From Hysterangium stoloniferum (lineage: Eukaryota > Basidiomycota > Agaricomycetes > Hysterangiales > Hysterangiaceae), in contig WHVD01000262.1 in the NCBI GenBank assembly GCA_015178975.1, positions 1 through 64,000 of the forward strand: 64,000 nt of DNA, given 5' to 3'. The translations under genes and the position numbers were made by a program. Below are positions 6,536 through 63,752 of this stretch, one piece after another (position 1 is the first letter of the stretch; every line of letters begins with the position of its first letter). The notes under the pieces were generated by a model, which had not been told where the DNA came from, made no database searches, and was given only the letters and a program-made list of their open reading frames with translations.

Positions 6536-6544
6536 CCTTTGAAT

Positions 6545-8486
6545 ATGGTCGAAATCGAGAGAGGGATCGCGACGGAACCTAGCCCTACCCCCCATCAGGA
6601 AAGTCCCTGCTCTCACGTCACGTTCGAACAAATCCCTGGCAATACAAACATGGGTGATGAACCAACTACGACTAGATATCGATCAGTCACCAACAGGGGT
6701 CGACTGTCTTTCTCCACTGCATTCACCGAGGGTATAGCTGGTCAGGTTGCTGGTCGAGGATCGCTGAATCCAGTCGACCCTCGCCATTCCCTCCCGATCT
6801 CCTCCAACCCTTTTCTGCCATCAGGAGGACCTCCTAGTAATTCATCTGGGAGTTCTAGTACCTCAAGCTATGGAGGGAATTCGGGATGTGGGGGGTGTCA
6901 CGGTAGAGTACCTAACTCTCCCTTTCGAACTCCGATGCAGCCTCGAGCCAGCACGCCTATCAATGACTTACCTAAGGATAAAAGGATCGCTCTTAACACC
7001 AACGACATCAAGATCAAATGGTCAGACCTTCCCGAATACGATGGGACTCAATCCAAAGCGTTGGACTACATCATGGATATTATGAGCCTCTCGGAGATCT
7101 CTGACTCCATGAGTACATTGTTGGGAGTCGCTCTGCCAAGGCGACTCACCGGCGGTGCTAAGATCTGGTGGAGCACCCTAGACCGTGAACATCGCACTGA
7201 ATTTAGTCGATCTCACGGATCGTTTCTTTGGGGCATCGTAGAAGGACTACTCGGAACTCGTTGGTGCGAATCCTTGGCTCTAGAATGGGAAGCCATGAAA
7301 TTTCGACAGGCTGGTCACAATCATGAGACACCCGTTCATTACATTCAGCGAAGGGTCAAGCTCTATCGATTCTTGTACGGGTTCCACCAAAACCGGAAGG
7401 ACGAAATGCACAGACTTATCCTGACACTACCCACAGAATGGCTTTATCTTTTACAGGGACAACCTATCGATGACATCATGAGTCTACAGACTTAGACATC
7501 ATGAGTCTACAGACTTAGACATCATGAGTCTACAAACTTAGACATCATGAGTCTACAGACTTAGACATCATGAGTCTACAGACTTAGACATCATGAGTCT
7601 ACAAACTTAGACATCATGAGTCTACAGACTTAGACATCATGAGTCTACAGACTTAGACATCATGAGTCTACAGACTTAGACATCATGAGTCTACAGACTT
7701 AGACATCATGAGTCTACAGACTTAGACATCATGAGTCTACAGACTTAGACATCATGAGTCTACAGACTTAGACATCATGAGTCTACAGACTTAGACATCA
7801 TGAGTCTACAGACTTACGCGAACAATTTACAAGAGGCTCTGATTAACGCTTGGGTTCAAACACATCGAGAGTGTTATCGGTTTCAGAAACCCAGAGTCAT
7901 GATTGCCGAGCAAGACGAGTCGGATCCCTGGCACGAGGAGGAGTACTCTGGAAAAATCGACTCCACTAATTGAGGCCACGTCCTCCTCAGCGAACTCGAG
8001 GATAAAACCGTCCCTAGGAGATCAAATGCTATGCAGGGTAAGAAACACGGCAAGTTCTTTTTCGAACGAAGTGACAAGAAAAGCATCGCCAAGCCTCCGA
8101 AGGAGTGTTGGATTTGTGGGAGCTTAGAGCATTTCAAGATCGACTGCCCCCATGCGGGCAGGATGTCACACTATGTCTCTATTAACAAGTGCTCCACGCA
8201 GAACCCAATGGAGGAGGCGGAGAATCAAAGGGCTTATGAAACAGTTTATGGATTAAGTGTACAGGGACAAGTACATAACATTGATGAGGAATCGATTTTC
8301 ATTTCTGTCTACCTTCCTCAGCCAGAGGACAACATCATTTCAGATGTGAAAGCATCCTTGAATGAGAACGAGACATCGCAAGTTTATGTTTCTATATCAG
8401 ACCATGATTTTCTCGAGAAAGGAGACTGGCTAGACACTCATCGTCAGAACCGTGAAGGTCTGACTGAGACGAGAGTTTTATCGTGA
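6545..8486 (+). pseudogene. GyA gag region (capsid and nucleocapsid)
   Basis: The first part has a serine- and glycine-rich leader, then a capsid-like segment (SDLPEYDG, WW..LD.EHRTEFSR, HYIQRRVKLYRFLYG, LTLPTEW). The latter part carries a zinc knuckle of C-x2-C-x4-H-x4-C form (CWICGSLEHFKIDCP, near 8107-8151). Gag packages the RNA, and the knuckle binds it. The region contains the 23-bp tandem repeat at 7473-7817. Matching GyB sequence lies at 23100-24950. Broken in a few places. Confidence 0.75.
7473..7817 (+). repeat. 23-bp minisatellite, about 15 units, in GyA gag
   Basis: Head-to-tail 23-bp units (core CATCATGAGTCTACAGACTT), nearly identical, with a few showing AAACTT in place of AGACTT. 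In GyB the matching gag position (near 24080-24100) has one diverged copy, so the array expanded within the GyA lineage. Near-identity suggests recent expansion. Confidence 0.95.
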
Positions 8487-19971: not shown

Positions 19972-20218
19972 TGTTAAAGGTATAGAAAAGAATTGACCCA
20001 GCCTGGGATTGAACCAAGGACCTCCTGGCTTTATATACAGGTGCTCTTAACCACTGAGCTACTGGACCTATGGTCTAGTATTATATGATGGATTATACAT
20101 ATATATAAGGACTTATGATGCCAACTTGTGCTCTTATAACAGTTTATATAACTGATGGCAAGCCTGGGTTTTATAACAGTCTATCACATATAGATATTGT
20201 ATTTTCCCATTTCTAACA
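19972..20218 (-). repeat. Solo TRIM-B LTR in GyB pol
   Basis: About 247 bp, from TGTTAAAGG to TTTCTAACA in plus-strand text, the reverse complement of other LTR B copies, including its tRNA-like unit. Flanks CGTGT and TGTGC are only partly alike, so the duplication has decayed or was altered. Confidence 0.8.
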
Positions 20219-21454
20219 TGTGTGCCCTTTTTGAGTAGCGAGAAAAGCGGGGATACAGTCCATGCATAGAAGGGTATGTAAGCTGAGAAGTACAAAACCA
20301 TACCCAGAAAATGTTGGAGTTCAGACACCTTAGTTGGGGTTGCTAGTTCCAATATGGCTCGTACTTTCTCTTGATGGGTTGAAAAACCTAACCGTGACAC
20401 CTTGTGTCCAAGCAGGAGAATAGAGTTGTAGCCTACATAGCATTTTTTTGGAGAAAGAGTGATGCCAGCTGAAATTATTGCTTGTAAGACTCGGTCCAGG
20501 TGCTCGATATGATCCTCCCAAGTTTTAGAAAATATTACTATATCGTCTATGTAGACTAAACAGAATATCCACAGATAGGGTGCCAATGTGTTTTGCATGA
20601 CTCGCTGGAAAATGGAGGGTCCGTTCCTTAATCCGAAAGGCATTCTTCTGAATTGCCATAGTCCTCAATGTGATCGAAAGGCCGTTTTGTGTCGGTCTTC
20701 CTCCAGCATTTCCAGTTGAGTAAAACCGGCTAGGGCATTGAACGAGGATAGAACGTTGGATCCCGAGAGTGCTTGCATAATTTCTGATTGTCGAGGCACC
20801 AGAAACTCATCTGGGATAGTAAGGCCGTTCAGTTTTCGATAATCAATAACTACGCGAGGTTTATTATTGTGATAGACCACGAAGGCAGGCGCTCCCCAAG
20901 GGCTTTTCGAAGGTTCGATGACTCCTTGTTGGAACCAGGTGTCCATTTGCTCATCTATGAGCTTCCTGTTGGCAGGGGAAGTTTGAAACATCAGTACAGA
21001 CACTGGTTGCACATCAGTTTTCAGCGGGATAGTGGCCTTGCTATCTACTTGGCCCAGTCTGCTGTCAACTCCAAATGCTTGCACGTTCTTAGTCAATATT
21101 GAGCTAAGGCGAGGCATAACGTCAGGAGGGACATCAGGTCCTAAGTTGACCAATTTATGCAGATCCTCCAAGGAGGGAATTTCCGAAGTCTTTGGGCCTG
21201 CGGGATCAAAGTCATCTACCATCTCGTTCCCTGAGAATACCATAGATGGTCGGGGACTGGAGGTGTTGTCTTCTTCTAGCCTGGAAATACTTTCTATGAA
21301 GTGGGCAATCTTCGAGCTTGTGACTCGCATCGATTCCTCTTCTGCTTGGGATCGAGGCTTTTGGGCCCAGACTCAAGCGTCGTGAATCAGACCTATGATC
21401 TCTCCTCTTCTGATAGTTTGAGGAGTTAAGGTCAGATTAGCCAGTGGTACCATA

Positions 21455-22343
21455 TGTTAGAAATGGGAAAATACAATATCTATATGTGACAGACTGTTAT
21501 AAGACCCAGGTTTGCCATCAGTTATATAAACTGTTATAAGAGCACAGGTTGGCATCATAAGTCCTTATATATATGTATATATAATCCATCATATAATACT
21601 AGACTATAGGTCCAGTAGCTCAGTGGTTAAGAGCACCTGCATATAAAGCCAGGATGGTCCTTGGTTCAATCCCAGGCTGGGTCAGTTCTTTTCTATGCCT
21701 TTAACAGGTTATGGGCCCCATTCAGCTTCATCTGCTGCGTAGGGTATAGACTAGATATTGATTTCAGGGGAAGTGTTAGAAATGGGAAAAATACAATATC
21801 TATATGTGACAGACTGTTATAAGACCCAGGCTTGCCATCAGTTATATAAACTGTTATAAGAGCACAAGTTGGCATCATAAGTCCTTGTATATATGTATAT
21901 ATAATCCATCATATAATACTAGACCATAGGTCCAGTAGCTCAGTGGTTAAGAGCACCTGCATATAAAGCCAGGAGGTCCTTGGTTCAATCCCAGGCTGGG
22001 TCAATTCTTTTCTATGCCTTTAACAGGTTATGGGCCCCATTCAGCTTCATCTGCTGCATAGGGTATAGACTAGATATTGATTTCAGGGGAAGTGTTAGAA
22101 ATGGGAAAATACAATATCTATATGTGACAGACTGTTATAAGACCCAGGTTTGCCATCAGTTATATAAACTGTTATAAGAGCACAAGTTGGCATCATAAGT
22201 CCTTATATATATGTATATATAATCCATCATATAATACTAGACTATAGGTCCAGTAGCTCAGTGGTTAAGAGCACGTGCATATAAAGCCAGGAGGTCCTTG
22301 GTTCAATCCCAGGCTCAGTCAGTTCTTTTCTATGCCTTTAACA
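21455..22343 (+). mobile_element. Tandem TRIM-B: LTR-internal-LTR-internal-LTR
   Basis: Three LTR B copies (21455-21706, 21774-22025, 22093-22343) separated by two 67-bp internal regions (21707-21773, 22026-22092), flanked by a perfect duplication CCATA (21450-21454, 22344-22348). Each internal region begins GGTTATGGGCCCC (primer binding site) and ends TTTCAGGGGAAG (purine tract). A terminal-repeat retrotransposon in miniature with no coding capacity, so it must use enzymes of another element. The three-LTR form fits unequal recombination between LTRs. Confidence 0.92.
21609..21683 (+). other. tRNA-like Pol III unit inside TRIM-B LTR
   Basis: A 75-nt stretch folds as a tRNA: acceptor GGTCCAG with CTGGGTC (7 pairs, two G-T), D arm GCTC/GAGC containing the A box (TAGCTCAGTGGTTAAGAGC), an imperfect anticodon stem with loop ATATAAA, and T arm containing the B box GGTTCAATCCC. 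A T-run (TTCTTTTCT) follows, as in a Pol III terminator. It recurs at the same place in every LTR B (LTR positions about 155-228). The anticodon stem is irregular, so it is probably a promoter module and not a working tRNA. Confidence 0.75.
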
Positions 22344-23099
22344 CCATACTCTTTTCTTTAGAGATAGCAGTCGTGGGGGCGGCAAGGATAGTCCCATCTT
22401 CGTTCTGTAAAACTATGCCCTCCACAATCCATTCCCCGTCCTCTAGATCCCCAGTAAAGATGGGTATTAACCTAACCGACTCGGGCTCTATCATGCAATC
22501 TTCTAGGGTTCTCGCGACTCTCTCAGCGCACATACCCTTGTCGGGTTTGGACGTTAGATTAGTTGGTGCGATTAGTTCGTCTTCCAGCAAGATCTTGTTG
22601 ACTGAAAAGGCCAATGGGACAGGTTCGTTGGAGGAGCTGGCAGGAATGAATCCCATCCTTCCAGGGAGGATTAGTCTTGATCCAGGGGTTGGTCTCACAA
22701 CGTTCCTATCTCATAGTTGATATGGAAGTCTTCTCCTAAGAGGATAGGTACGGTCATCCCTCGTACTACATAGGTTTCTGCGTTGAATCGCAGCAGGGTC
22801 CCTTTATTGTCCTTAAGGTAGATGGGGACGTTAATATAACCCAGTACTCGGGCACTCCCGGTAAGCTGTATTAATCGCAGTTTAAGTCCTTGCTTCAGCT
22901 TAGGTTGATCCTTCAGTTCTTGGTAGAATTCCTCTGACATGAGAGACAAATCGGCTCCAGTATCCAGTCTAATTTTGATTGGTTCTTCCCAATCGGGATT
23001 CCCTACTCCTCCGAGTATATGTAGTGCTGAAATGCCAACACTAGAATATCCTCCCGGTGGCTCCCTTTTTCGGTATACGATTGAGGAGTCCTCTTTCAT

Positions 23100-43723: not shown

Positions 43724-44292
43724 TGTTAGAAATGGGAAAATACAATATCTATATGTGACAGACTGTTATAAGACCCAGGCTTGCCATCAGTTATATAAAC
43801 TGTTATAAGAGCACAAGTTGGCAACATAAGTCCTTATATATATGTATATATAATCCATCATATAATACTAGACTATAGGTCCAGTAGCTCAGTGGTTAAG
43901 AGCACCTGCATATAAAGCCAGGAGGTCCTTGGTTCAATCCCAGGCTGGGTCAATTCTTTTCTATGCCTTTAACAGGTTATGGGCCCCGTTCAGCTTCATC
44001 TGCTGCGTAGGGTATAGACTAGATATTGATTTCAGGGGAAGTGTTAGAAATGGGAAAATACAATATCTATATGTGACAGACTGTTATAAGACCCAGGCTT
44101 GCCATCAGGTATATAAACTGTTATAAGAGCACAAGTTGGCAACATAAGTCCTTATATATATGTATATATAATCCATCATATAATACTAGACTATAGGTCC
44201 AGTAGCTCAGTGGTTAAGAGCACCTGCATATAAAGCCAGGAGGTCCTTGGTTCAATCCCAGGCTGGGTCAATTCTTTTCTATGCCTTTAACA
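43724..44292 (+). mobile_element. TRIM-B, complete two-LTR copy
   Basis: LTRs 43724-43974 and 44042-44292 (251 bp each), internal 43975-44041 (67 bp) with GGTTATGGGCCCC and TTTCAGGGGAAG. tRNA-like units lie in both LTRs. Flanks CGCAG and GCTGG do not match: the left side is CoC and the right side CoB-7, so a rearrangement joined them. Confidence 0.9.
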
Positions 44293-46093: not shown

Positions 46094-46337
46094 TGTTAGA
46101 AAACATGAGTAATGTAGAAAATGAATAGCCAGACTGGGGATTGAACCCAGGATCTCTCGATTACATAACGAAGGTGTTAACCACTACACCATCTGACCTT
46201 GGGTAGGTTTGGTCTTACACTGTACTTAAGGATATAACCCTAAGTGCCATTCCTATTAGATCATATACACACTGAACTCAGAGCTGTACACCATATGGTC
46301 CCAGTTGGAACAATGGTTGGTATTATATAATCTAACA
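46094..46337 (-). repeat. LTR M: solo LTR-like insertion carrying a tRNA-like unit
   Basis: 244 bp, TGTTAGA at one end and TCTAACA at the other, flanked by a perfect duplication GAGAA (46089-46093, 46338-46342). The empty site is seen in CoB-1 (CATTTGAGAAATGCAG near 57711-57726). No sequence similarity to LTR B outside the ends and the tRNA-like motifs, yet the layout is the same: tRNA-like unit, T-run, short tail, TCTAACA. Confidence 0.85.
46127..46198 (-). other. tRNA-like Pol III unit inside LTR M
   Basis: The minus strand folds as a tRNA of 72 nt: acceptor GGTCAGA with TCTGGCT, D arm GTGT/ACAC with A box TGGTGTAGTGGTTAACACC, anticodon arm with one mismatch and loop TATGTAA, T arm CTGGG TTCAATC CCCAG with B box GGTTCAATCCC. 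A T-run (CATTTTCT) follows. A true tRNA would have U at loop position 33, and here it is A, which argues against a working tRNA. Confidence 0.7.
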
Positions 46338-47048: not shown

Positions 47049-47299
47049 TGTTAAAGGCATAGAAAAGAATTGACCCAGCCTGGGATTGAACCAAGGACCT
47101 CCTGGCTTTATATGCAGGTGCTCTTAACCACTGAGCTACTGGACCTATAGTCTAGTATTATATGATGGATTATATATACACATATATAAGGACTTATGTT
47201 ACCAACTTGTGCTCTTATAACAGTTTATATAACTGATGGCAAACCTGGGTCTTATAACAGTCTGTCACATATAGATATTGTATTTTCCCATTTCTAACA
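47049..47299 (-). repeat. Solo TRIM-B LTR in CoA-2 gag region
   Basis: 251 bp with a perfect duplication CAAAG (47044-47048, 47300-47304). Includes the tRNA-like unit on the minus strand. Confidence 0.93.
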
Positions 47300-47746: not shown

Positions 47747-48340
47747 TGTTAAAAGTGACCTGTGACTTACTGTGACACGTGACACACACAAGTCTGAGGA
47801 AAGTTGTTACTATTCAGGTCACTAACTACAAGCTTATATATGTTATACATCAGTAGGCTTGTCAGCTGTCATAAGTGACAGCTGGTTGACAGCTGTCATA
47901 AGTGTGTTAAAGGCATAGAAAAAAATTGACCCAGCCTGGGATTGAACCAAGGACCTCCTGGCTTTATATGCAGGTGCTCTTAACCACTGAGCTACTGGAC
48001 CTATAGTCTAGTATTATATGATGGATTATATATACATATATATAAGGACTTGTGATGCCAACTTGTGCTCTTATAACAGTTTATATAACTGATGGCAAGC
48101 CTGGGTCTTATAACAGTCTGTCATATATAGATATTGTATTTTCCCATTTCTAACAAAGTGACAGCTGATTGACAGCTTGAATGGAAACTGACAGCTGATT
48201 GACAGCTGGAATACAAAGTGACAGCTGATTGACAGCTGTCATGGGAAATGAACTGGGAATACCCTGGAACATGCTGGAAGCTTCTAGAAGGTTCTAGAAG
48301 GTTCCAGAAGGTTTTGGAGACAGTGGAGGCAGTTTTAACA
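47747..48340 (-). repeat. Solo LTR A containing a solo LTR B
   Basis: LTR A in two parts around 47905-48155, flanked by a perfect duplication TATCT (47742-47746, 48341-48345). Confidence 0.92.
47905..48155 (-). repeat. Solo TRIM-B LTR inside LTR A
   Basis: 251 bp with a perfect duplication AAGTG (47900-47904, 48156-48160). This shows that TRIM-B moved after the LTR A insertion. Confidence 0.94.
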
Positions 48341-49302: not shown

Positions 49303-49968
49303 TGTTAAAACTGCCTCCACTGTCTCCAAGACCTTCTGGAACCTTCTAGAACCTTCTAGAAGCTTCCAGCATGTTCCAGAGTATTCCCAGTTCATTTCCC
49401 ATGACAGCTGTCAATCAGCTGTCACTTTGTATTCCAGCTGTCAATCAGCTGTCAGTTTCCATTCAAGCTGTCAATCAGCTGTCACTTATGACAGCTGTCA
49501 ACCAGCTGTGAACCAGCTGTCACTTATGACAGCTGACAAGCCTACTGATGTATAACATATATAAGCTTGTAGTTAGTGACCTGAATAGCAACAACTTTCC
49601 TCAGACTTGTGTGTGTCACGTGTCACAGTAAGTCACAGGTCACCTTTAACAGGTTATGGGCCCCGTGAGCTTGGTGCGCTGCATAGGGTATAGACTAGAT
49701 ATTGATTTCAGGGGAAGTGTTAGAAATGGGAAAATACAATATCTATATGTGACACACTGTTATAAGACCCAGGTTTGCCATCAGTTATATAAGCTGTTAT
49801 AAGAGCACAAGTTGGCATCATAAGTCCATATATATATGTATATATAATCCATCATATAATACTAGACCATAGGTCCAGTAGCTCAGTGGTTAAGAGCACC
49901 TGCATATAAAGCCAGGAGGTCCTTGGTTCAATCCCAGGCTGGGTCAATTCTTTTCTATGCCTTTAACA
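49303..49968 (+). mobile_element. Hybrid element: LTR A - TRIM-B internal - LTR B
   Basis: 49303-49651 is a full LTR A, 49652-49717 is a TRIM-B internal region (GGTTATGGGCCCC ... TTTCAGGGGAAG), and 49718-49968 is a full LTR B with its tRNA-like unit. The whole is flanked by a perfect duplication TTACA (49298-49302, 49969-49973). The empty site is present in CoA-1 near 39054-39062. The two ends of one insertion therefore come from different families. Confidence 0.9.
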
Positions 49969-53818: not shown

Positions 53819-54167
53819 TGTTAAATGTGACCTGTGACTTACTGTGACACGTGACACACACAAGTCTGAGGAAAGTTGTTACTATTCAGGTCACTAACTA
53901 CAAGCTTATATATGTTATACATCAGTAGGCTTGTCAGCTGTCATAAGTGACAGCTGGTTGACAGCTGGTTGACAGCTGTCATAAGTGACAGCTGATTGAC
54001 AGCTTGAATGGAAACTGACAGCTGATTGACAGCTGGAATACAAAGTGACAGCTGATTGACAGCTGTCATGGGAAATGAACTGGGAATACCCTGGAACATG
54101 CTGGAAGCTTCTAGAAGGTTCTAGAAGGTTCCAGAAGGTTTTGGAGACAGTGGAGGCAGTTTTAACA
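53819..54167 (-). repeat. CoB-1 3' LTR A
   Basis: 349 bp, identical by eye to 58633-58981. Confidence 0.95.
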
Positions 54168-54262
54168 GACCCCCCTGATCTCACATGTCTCCAAAGAAAA
54201 AGAAACAGAGAGAGAGAGAGAGACTTTGCTAAACTACAGAGAGTAAGAAAGAAAACAAGAAA

Positions 54263-57200
54263 CTAAGTCCTTATACCCATTCCATCACGGCAAAATTGAA
54301 CCTTGGGAGTAGATAGAGGCTTGGTTAGAATATCTGCAATTTGTTCTGCAGTAGGAATATAGGAAGGAGCAATACACTTGGCATTTACAGCATCCCTAAG
54401 CCAATAGTAGCGCAGGTCAAGATGTTTCATCCTTCCATGATGCTCAGGGTTCTTAGCAACACTGATGGCAGACTGGTTGTCAATGTGTAGAGTGGAGGGT
54501 TGATCAACTTGGTAGCCAAATTCACCTAGGATTTGCCGCATCCAGGCAATCTCCTTGCCAGCTTCTACAGCAGAGACAAATTCTGCTTCAGTTGTAGAAA
54601 GTGTGACAATACTTTGCAGTTTACTACTCCAGCCAATAGCACCTCCAGCCATCATAGTCACATAACCCCCAGTGGATCTTCCAGAATCAATACAATCACC
54701 ATGAGCAGCATCAGTGTATGTGGTGAATAATTCAGAGCCACATTTGCCAGAGTAATGCAACTTGTAATCCAGTGTACCTTTTAGGTATCTGAACAAGTGC
54801 TTCACTGCTGTCCAATGCTTTGGTCCAGGATTGCCATTAAAACGTGCCAAGTAGGACACAGTATAAGCAATATCTGGACGGGTCATAGTAGCCAGATATT
54901 GTAAAGACCCAACAGCACTGAGATAAGGAACACTACGCATGAAATCCACCTCTGCAGCATTCTCAGGACCCATTTCTTTGGAAAGAGATGTACCAGGTGT
55001 CATAGGTGTGAGAACTGGATGACAGTCAGACATGTTATAACGCTCAAGCATGTTGAGGATAAACTGTCGCTGATCAAGAGTAAGGAGACGCTTAGAGCGA
55101 TCTCTGCCAACTCCCACACCAAGTAAATAAACAGTGGGTCCAAGATCACGGCATTTGAAATGCAGGGACAATTGCTTGACAGCTTTGTCAATGGCAAGAG
55201 TGGACTTGGATGCAAATGTAATATCATCAATGTAAATGGGTACAAAGATCTTGACCTCTCCATTTGAATAAATGTAAACAGAGGTATCAGATTCAATTCG
55301 TTTGAACTCCATTTCAGTAAGTGCACCATGTAATTTGATGTTCCATTGACGAGATCCCTGCTTGAGACCATAAAGTGATTTCAAGAGTCTGAGAACCTTA
55401 TTAGGACCTCCTTGATGGAAGCCTTCAGGTTGTCTCATATAAATTGTCTCATCAAGGTCACCATGAGTGAAAGCGGCAGAAATATCAACAGAGCGCAAGT
55501 CCATGTCTTCAATGGCAGCTAGGGCCAGAATCAAACGCAGAGTGGCAGGTCTAAAAGTAGGTGCAAACACTTCATTATAGTCAATGCCAGGACGTTGTGA
55601 GTATCCTTTGGCAACAAGACGAGCTTTATAACGCTCAATTGTGCCATCTGCATTGTGTTTGACTTTAAATACCCAACCAGAACCAATTGCCTTTGCACCA
55701 ACTGGAAGATCAACAAGTTCCCATGTCTTGTTCTCTACCAGTGTACTATACTCTGCATTGATAGCTTCTTGCCATTTATCTGCATCATCACCTTTCATAG
55801 CCTGCTTGTAGTTTTGTGGATCAGCAGTTGAAGCTGTTCCAACAAACTGTACTTCCTCATAATCAATGTCTTCATCATCATCTTCAGCTAGAGCTGGAGC
55901 TGGTTGTACCTTCCACCATTCACCAGGTTGCTTTGGAACACGCTGAGAGCGACGAAGCTGTGGTTCTGGTGCAGGTGGAGGAGGTAGTTGAATGGGTTCA
56001 GGAAGTGCAGGAATCTGAGCAGGAGGTGCAGGAATCTGAACAGGAGGTGCAGGAATATAAGCAGGAGGTGCAGGAATATGAGTAGGAGGGACAGAAATAT
56101 CATTATCCCCCTCTACTTCTGGCACAAATAAAGGAATGTCAGAGTTTGGTATATTTGGGAAAAGCCTAATATTAGGCATTGGTCCAGTAGTAGATAGACC
56201 AGGAAAATGGCGTTCATCAAATACAGCCCGTTCAGAAATGATAAACTTCTTTGTAACAGGGTTGTAGAATTGCCAACCTTTGTATCCCACAGGATAGCCT
56301 AGAAAGAGGCATTTCTCCATGTGCGACTGAAGTGACTTCCTTTTGTCCTTTTGAATGTAAACATAGGCAGTACACCCCCACACTCGCAAGTTGCTCACAT
56401 CTGGTTTCTGCTTGTACCATTGCTCATAGGGTGTAGTTTTAGGCAATGGTGCAGTAGGCAGACGATTCCATACATAGACATAAGATGTCACAGCATGGTT
56501 CCAGAAAGAAGCAGGCATACGCGCCTCATGCATCATGGCAGTGACATGATCAGCCATAGTGCGATTGGCTCTTTCTGCAACTCCATTCTGTTGAGGGCGA
56601 TTGCGAGTAGTATGGCGGCGTACTATTCCACATTCATCTGTAAACTTGATAAAGGCATTTGACATATACTCCCCCCCTTTGTCATCCTGTAGAGCTTTGA
56701 CCTTGCAACCCAGAAGATTCTCAGCATAAGCTTTGTATCTCCTGAATGCTTCAAATGCATCACTCTTCCGTTTCAAGAACAGAACAGCTCGCAACTTGGT
56801 GCAATCATCAATAAAGGTTATCCAGTAGTGGTAACCCTCAGTTGTTTGCACAGGAAGTGGTCCATGTAGATCACTATGAATAAGTTCAAGTGGTGTCTGA
56901 GAATGACTTGGTGAGATAGGGAATGGACTAGCAGTCATTTTGCCAGCAAGGCAAGGTTCACAGATAGGATCAGGTTGTTCCTTTGAGTCAAGGTTTAAGC
57001 CAACCACCAATCCTTCTCTGATCATCTTCTGGACATCAGCATAGCTGTGGTGTCCAAGACGGCGATGCCAGAGATTGATATCAAAGGGAAGGGTGGAGAC
57101 AGCACCAGCTTGCTCAATAATAGGTGCAGTGACACCATTGAGGATACCTGCATTCTGTGCAGTAACTCTGGCTGTAAACATAGTCTGTCCAGAGTGTTTG

Positions 57201-58390
57201 AAATGCATTGTTGTTCGATCAATGTGTATGAGTAATCCTTTGTGCCTTGTGAGATAAAGACAAGACAGTAGGTTACTGTGCAGTTGTGGTACATGCAAAA
57301 CTCTTGTAAGCTCCACAGATCGCGATTTCCTTCCATTTATAACTGGGTTGAATACCACAGAACCAACTCCTGCAGAGTAGATAACAGTGTGATCTGCTAA
57401 CTTGATTGGGACACATAATGGTGTGTAGTTACGCAGCCAATGACTATGAGGAGTCATATGACTACTAGCACCTGTATCAGCAAGCCAATCATAGTCAGAA
57501 CCATTCTGCAGGGTGGAGGAATCGGATGAGGAGAAAGCAAGTGCATTTCCAGTATATTCAACATTGTTCTGAGACATTGTCTTCTGAGGCCTATTTGGCT
57601 TCTTCTTCCCTTTAGCACGATTGGTAAGGACACTCTCCTGTGCTTCCTGCTGCTTCTTAATGAAGCGATGACACTTGTCCATAGTATGGTTGGTCATAGA
57701 GCAGAAAGTACATTTGAGAAATGCAGTGGATGCATTGCCCTTTACAGTAAGTGCAGATGCAACTGCAGGAGCTTGTGAAGCCCGATGACGGCGTTGTGAC
57801 TCTTCTGTGACAAAAGCTTGTTGGATAGTAGCCTTGTCCAGCTTGTCCATCAGAAGGAGAGAAGAGGCAAAGTTGTCAAACTGCTCAGGAAGTGCCCTGA
57901 TCATTGCCATTGATGCAAGTTCCTCATCAAGTTTGGCAAGATCAAAATTCAATGGGCGCAGATCCTGGATGGCACGGATGGCTAGATCCACCCGATTCAT
58001 CAGAGTTTGCAAATTCTCATTCTCTTCCTTTCTGATGGAGAAGAGATCATCATACGCATTGAAGCGCATGCCAGGGCGCTTCTGCAAGTGTACATCACAC
58101 AGACTGGTCCACATCTTGACCGGATCACCCTCAATCCCTTTAAGATGAATCTTTTGATCATCCTCAACACTCAAGTACATCCAACCTGCTGCTTTGTCTA
58201 ACTTGAGAGCCCAAGCATCAAATGCAGTTTGCTGAGCCTCTGTGGGAGATGAGGATAGTGCAGGTGCAATGGAGGTGGCCTCAACAATGCGCCAGACACC
58301 CTGGGCACGAAGCCAAGCCTGCATCTCACCAGACCAGGTGTTGTAGTTATGAGAGTTGAGTTTAGGGAATTGGGGGATGGAAGATGACAT
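54263..58390 (-). CDS. CoB-1 Gag-Pol polyprotein (Ty1/Copia)
   Basis: 1375 codons, one frame. The start is taken at ATG 58390 (MSSSIPQFPKLNSHNYNTW), where other copies also begin. Approximate residues: 1-225 Gag with Copia-type capsid (YNTWSGEMQAWLRAQGVWRI, DKATIQQAFVTEESQRR); 230-245 zinc knuckle CTFCSMTNHTMDKCH; 300-315 protease WLADTGASSHMTPH; 435-490 GAG-pre-integrase HHCC domain (LWHRRLGHHSYADV, CEPCLAGK); 500-640 integrase core with D, D, E residues (HSDLHG, DDKGGEYM, NGVAERANRT); 780-860 proline-rich linker; 890-1130 RT with YIDDITFAS; 1200-1360 RNase H (YTDAAHGDCIDSGRSTGGY, TTEAEFVSAVEAGKEIAW, DNQSAISVAKNPEHHG) and ADILTKPL near the end. The domain order PR-INT-RT-RH defines Copia. 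Confidence 0.96.
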   Translation of the reverse strand: MSSSIPQFPKLNSHNYNTWSGEMQAWLRAQGVWRIVEATSIAPALSSSPTEAQQTAFDAWALKLDKAAGWMYLSVEDDQKIHLKGIEGDPVKMWTSLCDVHLQKRPGMRFNAYDDLFSIRKEENENLQTLMNRVDLAIRAIQDLRPLNFDLAKLDEELASMAMIRALPEQFDNFASSLLLMDKLDKATIQQAFVTEESQRRHRASQAPAVASALTVKGNASTAFLKCTFCSMTNHTMDKCHRFIKKQQEAQESVLTNRAKGKKKPNRPQKTMSQNNVEYTGNALAFSSSDSSTLQNGSDYDWLADTGASSHMTPHSHWLRNYTPLCVPIKLADHTVIYSAGVGSVVFNPVINGRKSRSVELTRVLHVPQLHSNLLSCLYLTRHKGLLIHIDRTTMHFKHSGQTMFTARVTAQNAGILNGVTAPIIEQAGAVSTLPFDINLWHRRLGHHSYADVQKMIREGLVVGLNLDSKEQPDPICEPCLAGKMTASPFPISPSHSQTPLELIHSDLHGPLPVQTTEGYHYWITFIDDCTKLRAVLFLKRKSDAFEAFRRYKAYAENLLGCKVKALQDDKGGEYMSNAFIKFTDECGIVRRHTTRNRPQQNGVAERANRTMADHVTAMMHEARMPASFWNHAVTSYVYVWNRLPTAPLPKTTPYEQWYKQKPDVSNLRVWGCTAYVYIQKDKRKSLQSHMEKCLFLGYPVGYKGWQFYNPVTKKFIISERAVFDERHFPGLSTTGPMPNIRLFPNIPNSDIPLFVPEVEGDNDISVPPTHIPAPPAYIPAPPVQIPAPPAQIPALPEPIQLPPPPAPEPQLRRSQRVPKQPGEWWKVQPAPALAEDDDEDIDYEEVQFVGTASTADPQNYKQAMKGDDADKWQEAINAEYSTLVENKTWELVDLPVGAKAIGSGWVFKVKHNADGTIERYKARLVAKGYSQRPGIDYNEVFAPTFRPATLRLILALAAIEDMDLRSVDISAAFTHGDLDETIYMRQPEGFHQGGPNKVLRLLKSLYGLKQGSRQWNIKLHGALTEMEFKRIESDTSVYIYSNGEVKIFVPIYIDDITFASKSTLAIDKAVKQLSLHFKCRDLGPTVYLLGVGVGRDRSKRLLTLDQRQFILNMLERYNMSDCHPVLTPMTPGTSLSKEMGPENAAEVDFMRSVPYLSAVGSLQYLATMTRPDIAYTVSYLARFNGNPGPKHWTAVKHLFRYLKGTLDYKLHYSGKCGSELFTTYTDAAHGDCIDSGRSTGGYVTMMAGGAIGWSSKLQSIVTLSTTEAEFVSAVEAGKEIAWMRQILGEFGYQVDQPSTLHIDNQSAISVAKNPEHHGRMKHLDLRYYWLRDAVNAKCIAPSYIPTAEQIADILTKPLSTPKVQFCRDGMGIRT

Positions 58391-58619
58391 TGTAGTATAC
58401 ACAGAGCAAACTCGCAAAGAAGTTCAGAAAAAAGGTATTTAACTCGAGGTCCAGACGGTAGTCTCGAGGGAAACTCAGCCTTAGTGGCGTACAAGTTCCT
58501 CCCTACTAGCAACAGCAATAAGGCTGGGCCTGGCAGGGGAATATAAAAGTATAGGCTGAAACTTACTCAAAAGAAGCGAGTTTGCAAAACGTTATACTGT
58601 ACTAGAGCGCTTAGAGCGC

Positions 58620-58632
58620 GGGGCCCATAACC
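58620..58632 (-). other. CoB-1 primer binding site (half initiator tRNA-Met)
   Basis: The minus strand reads GGTTATGGGCCCC directly after the 5' LTR, complementary to the initiator tRNA-Met anticodon stem-loop. The following GCGCT...AGCGC could extend pairing with the tRNA or form a hairpin. Confidence 0.85.
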
Positions 58633-58981
58633 TGTTAAATGTGACCTGTGACTTACTGTGACACGTGACACACACAAGTCTGAGGAAAGTTGTTACTATT
58701 CAGGTCACTAACTACAAGCTTATATATGTTATACATCAGTAGGCTTGTCAGCTGTCATAAGTGACAGCTGGTTGACAGCTGGTTGACAGCTGTCATAAGT
58801 GACAGCTGATTGACAGCTTGAATGGAAACTGACAGCTGATTGACAGCTGGAATACAAAGTGACAGCTGATTGACAGCTGTCATGGGAAATGAACTGGGAA
58901 TACCCTGGAACATGCTGGAAGCTTCTAGAAGGTTCTAGAAGGTTCCAGAAGGTTTTGGAGACAGTGGAGGCAGTTTTAACA
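58633..58981 (-). repeat. CoB-1 5' LTR A
   Basis: 349 bp. The heat-shock-element array is at 58898-58950 on the minus strand, upstream of the TATA-like box. Confidence 0.95.
58898..58950 (-). promoter_or_regulatory. Heat-shock-element array in the CoB-1 5' LTR
   Basis: GAA and TTC units in 5-bp register across 53 bases (GAA 58898, GAA 58908, then alternating GAA/TTC units from 58918 to 58950). Same array as at 106-158, in the promoter position of the youngest element. Confidence 0.7.
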
Positions 58982-61186: not shown

Positions 61187-63182
61187 GCTTTCACCCATGG
61201 TGACCTTGATGAGACAATCTATATGAGACAACCTGAAGGCTTCCATCTGTTAGAAATGGGAAAATACAATATCTATATGTGACAAACTGTTATAAGACCC
61301 AGGCTTGCCATCAGTTATATAAGCTGTTATAAGAGCACAAGTTGGCATCATAAGTCCTTATATATATGTATATATAATCCATCATATAATACTAGACTAT
61401 AGGTCCAGTAGCTCAGTGGTTAAGAGTACCTGCATATAAAGCCAGGAGGTCCTTGGTTCAATCCCAGGCTGGGTCAATTCTTTTCTATGCCTTTAACAGG
61501 TTATGGGCCCCGTTCGCTTGGTGCGCTGCATAGGGTATAGACTAGATATTGATTTCAGGGGAAGTGTTAGAAATGGGAAAATACAATATCTATATGTGAC
61601 AAACTGTTATAAGACCCAGGCTTGCCATCAGTTATATAAGCTGTTATAAGAGCACAAGTTGGCATCATAAGTCCTTATATATATGTATATATAATCCATC
61701 ATATAATACTAGACTATAGGTCCAGTAGCTCAGTGGTTAAGAGTACCTGCATATAAAGCCAGGAGGTCCTTGGTTCAATCCCAGGCTGGGTCAATTCTTT
61801 TCTATGCCTTTAACACCATCAAGGAGGTCCTAATAAGGTTCTCAGACTCTTGAAATCACTTTATGGTCTCAAGCAGGGATCTCGTCAATGGAACATCAAG
61901 TTACATGGTGCACTTACTGAAATGGAGTTCAAACGAATTGAATCTGATACCTCTGTTTACATTTATTCAAATGGAGAGGTGAAGATCTTTGTACCCATTT
62001 ACATTGATGATATTACATTTGCATCCAAGTCCACTCTTGCCATTGACAAAGCTGTCAAGCAATTGTCCCTGCATTTCAAATGCCGTGATCTTGGACCCAC
62101 TGTTTATTTACTTGGTGTAGGAGTTGGCAGAGATCGCTCTAAGCGTCTCCTTACTCTTGATCAGCGACAATTTATTCTCAACATGCTTGAGCGTTATAAC
62201 ATGTCTGACTGTCATCCAGTTCTCACACCTATGACACCTGGTACATCTCTTTCCAAAGAAATGGGTCCTGAGAATGCTGCAGAGGTGGATTTCATGCATA
62301 GTGTTCCTTATCTCAGTGCTGTTGGGTCTTTACAATACCTGGCTACTATGACCCGTCCAGATATTGCTTATACTGTGTCCTACTTGGCACGTTTTAATTG
62401 CAATCCTGGACCCAAGCATTGGACAGCAGTGAAGCACTTGTTCAGATACCTAAAAGGTACACTGGATTACAAGTTGCATTACTCTGGTAAATGTGGCTCT
62501 GAATTATTCACCACATACACTGATGCTGCTCATGGTGATTGTATTGATTCTGGAAGATCCACTGGGGGTTATGTGACTATGATGGCTGGAGGTGCTATTG
62601 GCTGGAGTAGTAAACTGCAAAGTATTGTCACACTTTCTACAACTGAAGCAGAATTTGTCTCTGCTGTAGAAGCTGGCAAGGAGATTGCCTGGATGCGGCA
62701 AATCCTAGGTGAATTTGGCTACCAAGTTGATCAACCCTCCACTCTACACATTGACAACCAGTCTGCCATCAGTGTTGCTAAGAACCCTGAGCATCATGGA
62801 AGGATGAAACATCTTGACCTGCGCTACTATTGGCTTAGGGATGCTGTAAATGCCAAGTGTATTGCTCCTTCCTATATTCCTACTGCAGAACAAATTGCAG
62901 ATATTCTAACCAAGCCTCTATCTACTCCCAAGGTTCAATTTTGCCGTGATGGAATGGGTATAAGGACTTAGTTTCTTGTTTTCTTTCTTACTCTCTGTAG
63001 TTTAGCAAAGTCTCTCTCTCTGTCTCTCTCTCTGTTTCTTTTTCTTTGGAGACATGTGAGATCAGGGGGGTCTGTTAAAACTGCCTCCACTGTCTCCAAG
63101 ACCTTCTGGAACCTTCTAGAACCTTCTAGAAGCTTCCAGCATGTTCCAGAGTATTCCCAGTTCATTTCCCATGACAGCTGTC
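61187..63182 (+). mobile_element. CoB-3: 3' part of a CoB element
   Basis: Part of RT (61187-61247), a TRIM-B insertion, then RT and RNase H to 62971, the (CT)n stretch, purine tract and the first 110 bp of a 3' LTR A (63073-63182), cut by a TRIM-B at 63183. The 5' part is absent; CoB-2's LTR abuts it directly. The coding sequence is nearly identical to CoB-2. Incomplete. Confidence 0.85.
61248..61815 (+). mobile_element. TRIM-B, complete, very young copy
   Basis: LTRs 61248-61498 and 61565-61815 look identical and share a private variant in the D arm (GAGTACC). Internal 61499-61564 (66 bp) begins GGTTATGGGCCCC. Perfect duplication CCATC (61243-61247, 61816-61820). Inserted into the RT region of CoB-3. 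Confidence 0.95.
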
Positions 63183-63752
63183 TGTTAGAAATGGGAAAAT
63201 ACAATATCTATATGTGACAGACTGTTATAAGACCCAGGTTTGCCATCAGTTATATAAACTGTTATAAGAGCACAAGTTGGCAACATAAGTCCTTATATAT
63301 ATGTATATATAATCCATCATATAATACTAGACTATAGGTCCAGTAGCTCAGTGGTTAAGAGCACCTGCATATAAAGCCAGGAGGTCCTTGGTTCAATCCC
63401 AGGCTGGGTCAATTCTTTTCTATACCTTTAACAGGTTATGGGCCCCGTGAGCTTGGTGCGCTGCATAGGGTATAGACTAGATATTGATTTCAGGGGAAGT
63501 GTTAGAAATGGGAAAATACAATATCTATATGTGACAGACTGTTATAAGACCCAGGTTTGCCATCAGTTATATAAACTGTTATAAGAGCACAAGTTGGCAA
63601 CATAAGTCCTTATATATATATATATATATAATCCATCATATAATACTAGACTATAGGTCCAGTAGCTCAGTGGTTAAAAGCACCTGCATATAAAGCCAGG
63701 AGGTCCTTGGTTCAATCCTAGGCTGGGTCAATTCTTTTCTATGTCTTTAACA
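63183..63752 (+). mobile_element. TRIM-B, complete two-LTR copy
   Basis: LTRs 63183-63433 and 63500-63752, internal 63434-63499. The second LTR has a longer TA run. Flanks CTGTC and GATAT do not match: the left side is an LTR A and the right side the end of an LTR E. Confidence 0.9.

Follow-up and report, generated by a model that had tools for sequence, protein, structure and literature searches.

A Probable Helenus-Type LTR Retroelement with a tRNA-Derived Unit in Its LTRs, and a Candidate Copia Helper, in the Genome of Hysterangium stoloniferum

Introduction

Can a non-coding element that is bounded by LTRs be transcribed from a tRNA-derived promoter within those LTRs, and which autonomous element would then supply the proteins for its mobilization? 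These questions are raised by interval 21455-22343 of a 64-kb stretch of the Hysterangium stoloniferum genome (here called the window). An initial annotation, made from the sequence alone, described this interval as a miniature LTR element (TRIM) with a tRNA-like unit in each LTR. The interval was found to have the structure LTR-interior-LTR-interior-LTR, with a length of 889 bp and one TSD, CCATA, at either end. The assignment to the LTR elements stands, and a three-LTR array with a single TSD takes the place of a plain two-LTR element.

The known TRIMs with a Pol III promoter are Cassandra and, since 2024, Helenus and Ajax; the transcription of Helenus and its helpers are unproven. Helenus was described as a group of TRIMs with a tRNA-like sequence in the LTR, present in fungi that include the Agaricomycetes (Kojima 2024, Biology 13:119, PMC10886601), and in the same description Helenus and Cassandra are grouped as "TRIMp3". 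A search of the literature from 2023 on for Helenus together with TRIM, tRNA, and retrotransposon returned no paper besides that of Kojima. In the genome considered here the copies are recent and very similar, a possible helper with an open frame lies within the same 64-kb window, and hybrids link the two elements. Two questions are made testable: whether the genomic RNA originates from Pol III, and by what means a transcript of Pol III is packaged by an LTR element.

Results

Structure and Copies of TRIM-B

The features of the window are collected in Table 1. TRIM-B is the label of the initial annotation, and the labels TRIM-T, TRIM-I, and copX were coined in this analysis.

Table 1. Positions of TRIM-B, Related Elements, and the Candidate Helper in the Window
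Feature	Position	Strand	Remarks
TSD CCATA of the three-LTR array	left 21450-21454, right 22344-22348		
LTR-B 1 of the three-LTR array	21455-21706	+	
tRNA-like unit in LTR-B 1	21609-21684	+	RF00005, 43.7 bits
PBS GGTTATGGGCCCC, first interior	21707-21719	+	reverse complement, without mismatch, of a stretch of the host initiator tRNA's anticodon arm
Polypurine tract CAGGGGAAG	21765-21773	+	one C at start; read from sequence
LTR-B 2 of the array	21774-22025	+	
tRNA-like unit in LTR-B 2	21929-22003	+	48.6 bits; box A, box B, and 7 standard acceptor pairs (model alignment)
TTTT within candidate Pol III terminator TTCTTTT, LTR-B 2	22008-22011	+	14 bases on to the LTR end
Second interior	22026-22092	+	67 bp; PBS 22026-22038, PPT 22084-22092
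LTR-B 3 of the array	22093-22343	+	
tRNA-like unit in LTR-B 3	22247-22321	+	30.9 bits; weakest of 13
TRIM-B with two identical LTRs	61248-61815	+	TSD CCATC; recent insertion
TRIM-B with two LTRs	43724-44292	+	no TSD (CGCAG/GCTGG)
TRIM-B with two LTRs	63183-63752	+	no TSD (CTGTC/GATAT)
Solo LTR-B	47905-48155	-	TSD AAGTG
Solo LTR-B	47049-47299	-	TSD CAAAG
Solo LTR-B	19972-20218	-	flanks agree at 4 of 5 bases
Solo TRIM-T LTR	46094-46337	-	244 bp; TSD GAGAA; absent from the initial annotation
tRNA-Thr(TGT)-like unit of TRIM-T	46126-46198	-	49 bits
Hybrid	49303-49968	+	copX LTR 49303-49651, TRIM-B interior 49652-49717, LTR-B 49718-49968; TSD TTACA
copX, candidate helper copia	53819-58981	-	identical 349-bp LTRs; TSD GGAGG

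The window holds 13 copies of LTR-B, 10 on the plus strand and 3 on the minus strand, where at least ten had been counted before. Most of these are 251-252 bp in length, and the LTR is laid out as U3 (1-155), the tRNA-like unit (156-230), and U5 (231-252). The unit had been reported at LTR positions 155-228; its presence holds, and its limits were recomputed. Likewise, the T-run that had been placed about 20 bases before the LTR end was found to be TTCTTTT, with its TTTT ending 14 bases before the end. The length of 66-67 bp given for the interior was reproduced, and the two-LTR copies, at about 570 bp, are without coding capacity. A tandem array with a 23-base period also occupies positions 7403-7885 of the window and overlaps the end of an open frame (6539-7495).

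Recounted by genome position, the collected copies of LTR-B fall at 76 distinct places. At 33 of the 76 the LTR is solo, without an adjoining TRIM interior, and 22 of these 33 are flanked by a perfect 5-bp TSD; when flanks were cross-paired as a control, 5 of 1056 matched. With arrays excluded, a perfect TSD was found for 7 of 12 separate two-LTR copies; of the other 5, those at 43724 and 63183 belong to the window. Between the two LTRs of a pair, 0-7 substitutions were counted, and the pair is identical in three separate copies (61248, C109:84129, and C514:317364), and therefore TRIM-B has moved recently.

Detection of the tRNA-like Unit

The gathering score of RF00005 (29 bits) was reached by all 13 LTR-Bs of the window, with scores of 30.9-48.6 bits (seven at 48.6), as expected from the claim that each LTR-B contains a tRNA-shaped stretch. 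The best tRNA matches of the host genome reach 73 bits (63 scored of 5384 candidates). Eighteen hydrophobin matches in the host genome point to an Agaricomycete. ARAGORN called a tRNA in 12 of the 13 copies and missed the unit at 22247. The comparison with shuffled controls that the initial annotation had proposed was won by the real sequences: on dinucleotide shuffles, ARAGORN made 0, 1, and 0 calls in 3000 for LTR-B, TRIM-T, and TRIM-I, respectively. Box A is TAGCTCAGTGG and box B is GGTTCAATCCC in LTR-B, and the Helenus consensus, TRGCY...YGG and GGTTC, is kept. ARAGORN reads an ATA anticodon in the unit, and the model alignment requires an extra base in the anticodon stem. When folded as RNA, the units of TRIM-I and TRIM-T form a cloverleaf and that of TRIM-B does not; only 1 of 4 host tRNAs was folded into a cloverleaf by the same procedure, and the folding was therefore given no weight. 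At gathering scores, the Rfam scan of the window returned tRNA only, with no 5S rRNA-derived sequence in the LTRs.

The 5' half of the TRIM-B unit has 277 matches in the genome (111 Mb, 554 contigs) when up to 3 mismatches in 31 positions are allowed, and the reversed control has none. At least 235 of the approximately 277 carry the U3/tRNA junction of the LTR itself. Together with 376 matches to TRIM-I and TRIM-T, 653 tRNA-like half-units fit the patterns of the LTR families, a count of pattern matches whether or not each of them lies in an LTR. The number of tRNA genes counted in such fungi may be inflated by tRNA-bearing LTRs. Among the first 100 of the 277 matches, the TRIM-B places are concentrated on a few contigs (C35, C14, C60, C109, C137, and C182), and among the first 100 of the 376, the TRIM-I and TRIM-T places are scattered across many contigs. 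Many intron-bearing copies that resemble tRNA-Lys(CTT) were also observed; they are clustered, often 400-430 bases apart, and have related flanks. These clusters (C112:987097-1219099, C68:744746-852232, C410, C526, C98, and C290; loci among L014-L038) look like tandem or dispersed tRNA-Lys arrays.

Sequence Conservation

Variable columns were counted in 72 copies of LTR-B, with four loci (L039-L042) excluded that had been chosen by tRNA identity; the sample favors young copies, the best matches having been taken first. The numbers of variable columns in U3, the tRNA part, and U5 were determined to be 61 of 155, 15 of 75, and 6 of 22, respectively, and the tRNA part is less variable than the rest of the LTR (15/75 vs 67/177, p = 0.0054). 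For boxes A and B, which were marked only after the list of variants had been printed, 1 of 22 columns is variable vs 81 of 230 for the remaining LTR columns (p = 0.0018). The comparison with the rest of the tRNA part (14/53) is borderline (p = 0.053), and the difference between singleton and shared variants is not significant (p = 0.51). In 19 copies of TRIM-I, the corresponding counts are 10 of 34, 6 of 72, and 3 of 22, and the tRNA part is again less variable than its flanks (6/72 vs 13/56, p = 0.024). No additional constancy of the boxes was found in these 19 copies (3/22 vs 16/106 elsewhere, p = 1). An even spread of substitutions over the LTR, which the initial annotation had named as evidence against a tRNA-like unit, is thus not what TRIM-B displays, where variants avoid the boxes, although TRIM-I has no such bias. 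The bias toward conserved A and B boxes is moderate and, of the two families counted, was seen in TRIM-B.

Three tRNA-Bearing Families

The host genome contains three tRNA-bearing TRIM families: TRIM-B, TRIM-T, and TRIM-I. The LTR of TRIM-I is 128 bp, with a tRNA-like unit at 35-106 (46.8 bits), a U3 of only 34 bp, and an interior of 155 bp; the interior of a TRIM-T copy at L006 (1-616) is 168 bp. A three-LTR array of TRIM-I is also present, with the TSD TCGTG (L057). The interiors of TRIM-T and TRIM-I are alike in parts, as judged by eye. The tRNA units of the three families are 76-82% identical to one another, which lies inside the range of 54-83% obtained in comparisons with nine host tRNAs and so does not in itself point to a common descent of the three units. 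With the last 8 bases left out, the likeness of the U5 regions has P values of 0.013, 0.29, and 0.001 for TRIM-B/TRIM-I, TRIM-B/TRIM-T, and TRIM-T/TRIM-I, respectively.

Primer Binding Site

The 13-nt PBS GGTTATGGGCCCC is common to TRIM-B and TRIM-I, and its reverse complement is identical to GGGGCCCATAACC of the host initiator tRNA, for which three genome matches were found and the sequence of two was used in the comparison. From this complementarity, TRIM-B is predicted to be primed at an internal, half-tRNA site in the anticodon arm. Internal half-tRNA priming is also described for Ty5 and Drosophila copia (PMC10886601). The combined pattern of LTR end and PBS occurs at 907 sites in the genome (up to 2 mismatches; none in the reversed control), and those that were sampled belong to TRIM-B, several copias, and TRIM-I. 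The interior of TRIM-T begins with TGGTAGCAACTCCA, which, compared by eye, is complementary to that initiator tRNA at its 3' end with CCA added; TRIM-T is thus probably primed at the tRNA 3' end, unlike TRIM-B.

copX and the Hybrids

The copia element copX shares the PBS of TRIM-B, and the LTR ends of the two are similar. Its open frame (54263-58417) has matches to copia gag (PF14223), integrase (rve), and RVT_2 (PF07727), with the rve match, at 31.1 bits, slightly under Pfam's 32.6. We classed 81 LTR/PBS junctions. The unswapped junctions are LTR-B to TRIM-B interior (21), copX to copX (20), and LTR-I to TRIM-I (18). In another 12, other copias lead into their own or unclassed interiors, and in one LTR-B leads into an unclassed interior. 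The swapped junctions are copX LTR to TRIM-B interior (4) and LTR-B to copX interior (3), and these seven lie at five places: C182, C35 (two), C2 (two), C109, and C14. The remaining two are exchanges between TRIM-I and another copia, both at L070. At this locus (C58:157500-158160), a TRIM-I unit lies between the LTR and the interior of a copia other than copX, in a mirror image of the C2 composite described below.

Two simple hybrids could be read at both ends, and both have a perfect 5-bp TSD and begin exactly at the terminus of the copX LTR. One of these is in the window (Table 1) and sits, judged by its flanks, in the frame of another copia; the other, on C109, consists of copX LTR, TRIM-B interior, and LTR-B, with the TSD AAAGA. 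The C2 composite has the order LTR-B, copX interior, copX LTR, TRIM-B interior, and LTR-B; only its ends were read, and the TTTTT on either side is of low complexity and is weak as a TSD. No TSD flanks the C14 hybrid (LTR-B, copX interior, and copX LTR), the sole reciprocal hybrid tested; for the C35 hybrid, the far end was looked for and not found. The order with copX on the left and LTR-B on the right is the one expected, by the established cycle of LTR elements, if copX plus-strand strong-stop DNA is transferred to minus-strand DNA of TRIM-B at their common PBS. The TSD-flanked hybrids are as expected for template switching within a shared particle, and on the basis of these structures we propose copX as the helper of TRIM-B. 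In the literature, a search for chimeras formed by template switching with non-autonomous LTR elements gave nothing on point among the matches listed.

Candidate Promoters and Terminators

In four TRIM-B copies, the stretch that extends from the tRNA-like unit of the first LTR to the second T4, both included, was determined to be 401-404 nt. Exactly four T are kept in 75 of 76 copies of LTR-B, and seven T are found in the other. In 10 of 12 host tRNA genes whose downstream region could be read, the first run of at least four T exceeds four. In budding yeast, T4 is reported to be a weak Pol III terminator, with frequent read-through of primary terminators (PMC9278858). A weak stop suits an element that needs to pass its first T4 and to end at the second. 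For transposition, a TRIM-B transcript that stopped at the first T-run would be of no use, and read-through with a stop in the second LTR would be needed. The absence of TTTT between the two stops of TRIM-B was considered as a signature of Pol III and was dropped, since shuffles give the same result (P about 0.5). In TRIM-I, the T-run that follows the tRNA-like unit is interrupted in 10 of 18 copies, and the remaining T4 is in CTTTTAACA at the LTR end.

The U3 of TRIM-B contains the TATA-like sequence TATATAAA near LTR positions 70-76, and a Pol II start is therefore possible in that family. The short U3 of TRIM-I leaves little room for a Pol II promoter. TRIM-I is thus, in its anatomy, the stronger case for putative Pol III transcription, even though its boxes are without extra constancy.

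Discussion

We conclude that TRIM-B is probably (at a rough probability of 0.78) a non-coding LTR retroelement of the Helenus type, whose LTR carries a tRNA-derived promoter with boxes A and B and which would multiply by the following cycle. Pol III would initiate within the 5' LTR, at its tRNA-like unit, read through the weak T4 stop, cross the 67-bp interior and the U3, and stop at the T4 of the 3' LTR. The resulting RNA would be approximately 400 nt, with the tRNA-like unit itself as the R repeat. This RNA may enter copX particles, as the hybrids suggest, and reverse transcription would be primed by the host initiator tRNA, whose anticodon arm is complementary to the shared PBS. The cDNA would be integrated with a 5-bp duplication, of the kind seen in the structures, and template switches at the shared PBS would leave hybrid and multi-LTR copies. 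Pol III transcription of TRIM-B is inferred here from its sequence.

A more specific version of this scheme is offered tentatively, and we hold it to be possible rather than probable. A single tRNA-derived unit would serve as the Pol III promoter, as the R repeat for strand transfer, and, with a T4 stop kept at half strength, as the means of obtaining full-length RNAs. The Pol III RNAs would be loaded into particles of a copia transcribed by Pol II in the same nucleus, and the TSD-flanked hybrids would be fossils of intermolecular plus-strand transfer at the shared half-tRNA primer site. The TRIM families may also differ in their copia helper, with copX for TRIM-B and, from the one case at L070, another copia for TRIM-I.

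The hybrids could also have arisen later, by DNA recombination or gene conversion between neighboring copies, and copX need not then be the helper. TRIM-B and copX do occur together in repeat-dense stretches such as the window, a single crossover at the shared 20-nt junction also accounts for the C2 composite, the C14 hybrid lacks a TSD, and the tandem arrays of Cassandra have been put down to recombination (PMC7215508). However, in both simple hybrids the left edge coincides exactly with the copX LTR terminus and the TSD encloses the entire hybrid, and in the absence of homology at the left edge, conversion would hardly yield such structures. We consider a recombinational origin unlikely, though it deserves to be kept in mind, and prefer template switching as the source of the simple hybrids.

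Transcription of TRIM-B by Pol II from the TATA box in U3 is a different matter, in which the tRNA-like unit would be a passenger or would act in packaging, insulation, or targeting. The position of TATATAAA and the ordinary variability of the boxes in TRIM-I speak for this explanation, but TRIM-I has the same arrangement with hardly any U3, and of the stretches of LTR-B that were tested, boxes A and B vary least; we regard it as quite unlikely. It is very improbable that the units represent tRNA SINEs or tRNA genes, whether ordinary or expanded, that happen to be located within repeats. Rfam and ARAGORN do call them tRNAs, and the genome also has the clustered tRNA-Lys-like copies, but the units occupy a fixed place in TG...CA repeats that are accompanied by a PBS, a PPT, and 5-bp TSDs, and both the ATA anticodon and the extra base in the anticodon stem are at odds with such genes. 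Transcription by Pol III from within the LTR of a mobile element remains our preferred reading.

The initial annotation had regarded the element as a fungal, tRNA-based counterpart of Cassandra. This is right, and the kind has already been named as Helenus (PMC10886601), of which TRIM-B is a new member, placed by its structural features rather than by published consensus sequences. As described for Helenus, TRIM-B is a non-coding TRIM of under about 1000 bp (about 570 bp, and 889 bp for the array; the published range is 311-1263 bp, PMC10886601), with a tRNA-like sequence in both LTRs, boxes A and B, a PBS after the 5' LTR, and a PPT before the 3' LTR. Further likenesses are the 5-bp TSD of the fungal members (here 22/33 for solo LTRs and 7/12 for two-LTR copies), a PBS directed to the anticodon loop or 3' end of the initiator tRNA, several families per genome, and, for the fungal members, a Copia-type partner, for which copX is the candidate here from the shared PBS and the hybrids. 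Tandem arrays are mentioned for Helenus of fish, and Pol III transcription is given as unproven in the 2024 paper (PMC10886601). In that paper, a partner is linked most directly by the internal similarity of elements from two rust species (PMC10886601); in the present case, TSD-flanked hybrids lead us to propose a partner from the same genome.

Cassandra resembles TRIM-B in having a small-RNA promoter in the LTR and, approximately, in its three-LTR arrays with interior spacers; it differs in that its Pol III promoter is derived from 5S rRNA and not from a tRNA, in its occurrence in plants, and in an autonomous partner that is described as unknown (PMC7215508). Ajax likewise has a Pol III-type promoter sequence in the LTR of a TRIM and a 5-bp TSD, but this sequence is a partial 5S, the hosts are nemerteans, and the primer is tRNA-Leu (PMC10886601). 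With tRNA-derived SINEs, TRIM-B shares the tRNA-derived internal promoter; these are without LTRs, PBS, and PPT and are moved by non-LTR elements (PMC10886601). The suggestion that the element blurs the line between TRIMs and SINEs is therefore half right, since the LTRs, PBS, PPT, and 5-bp TSDs mark it as an LTR element, and TRIM-B is not a dispersed, tRNA-headed unit free of LTRs, as a SINE would be. What is added to the published kind is the set of TSD-flanked hybrids with a copia of the same genome, together with the anatomy of TRIM-I.
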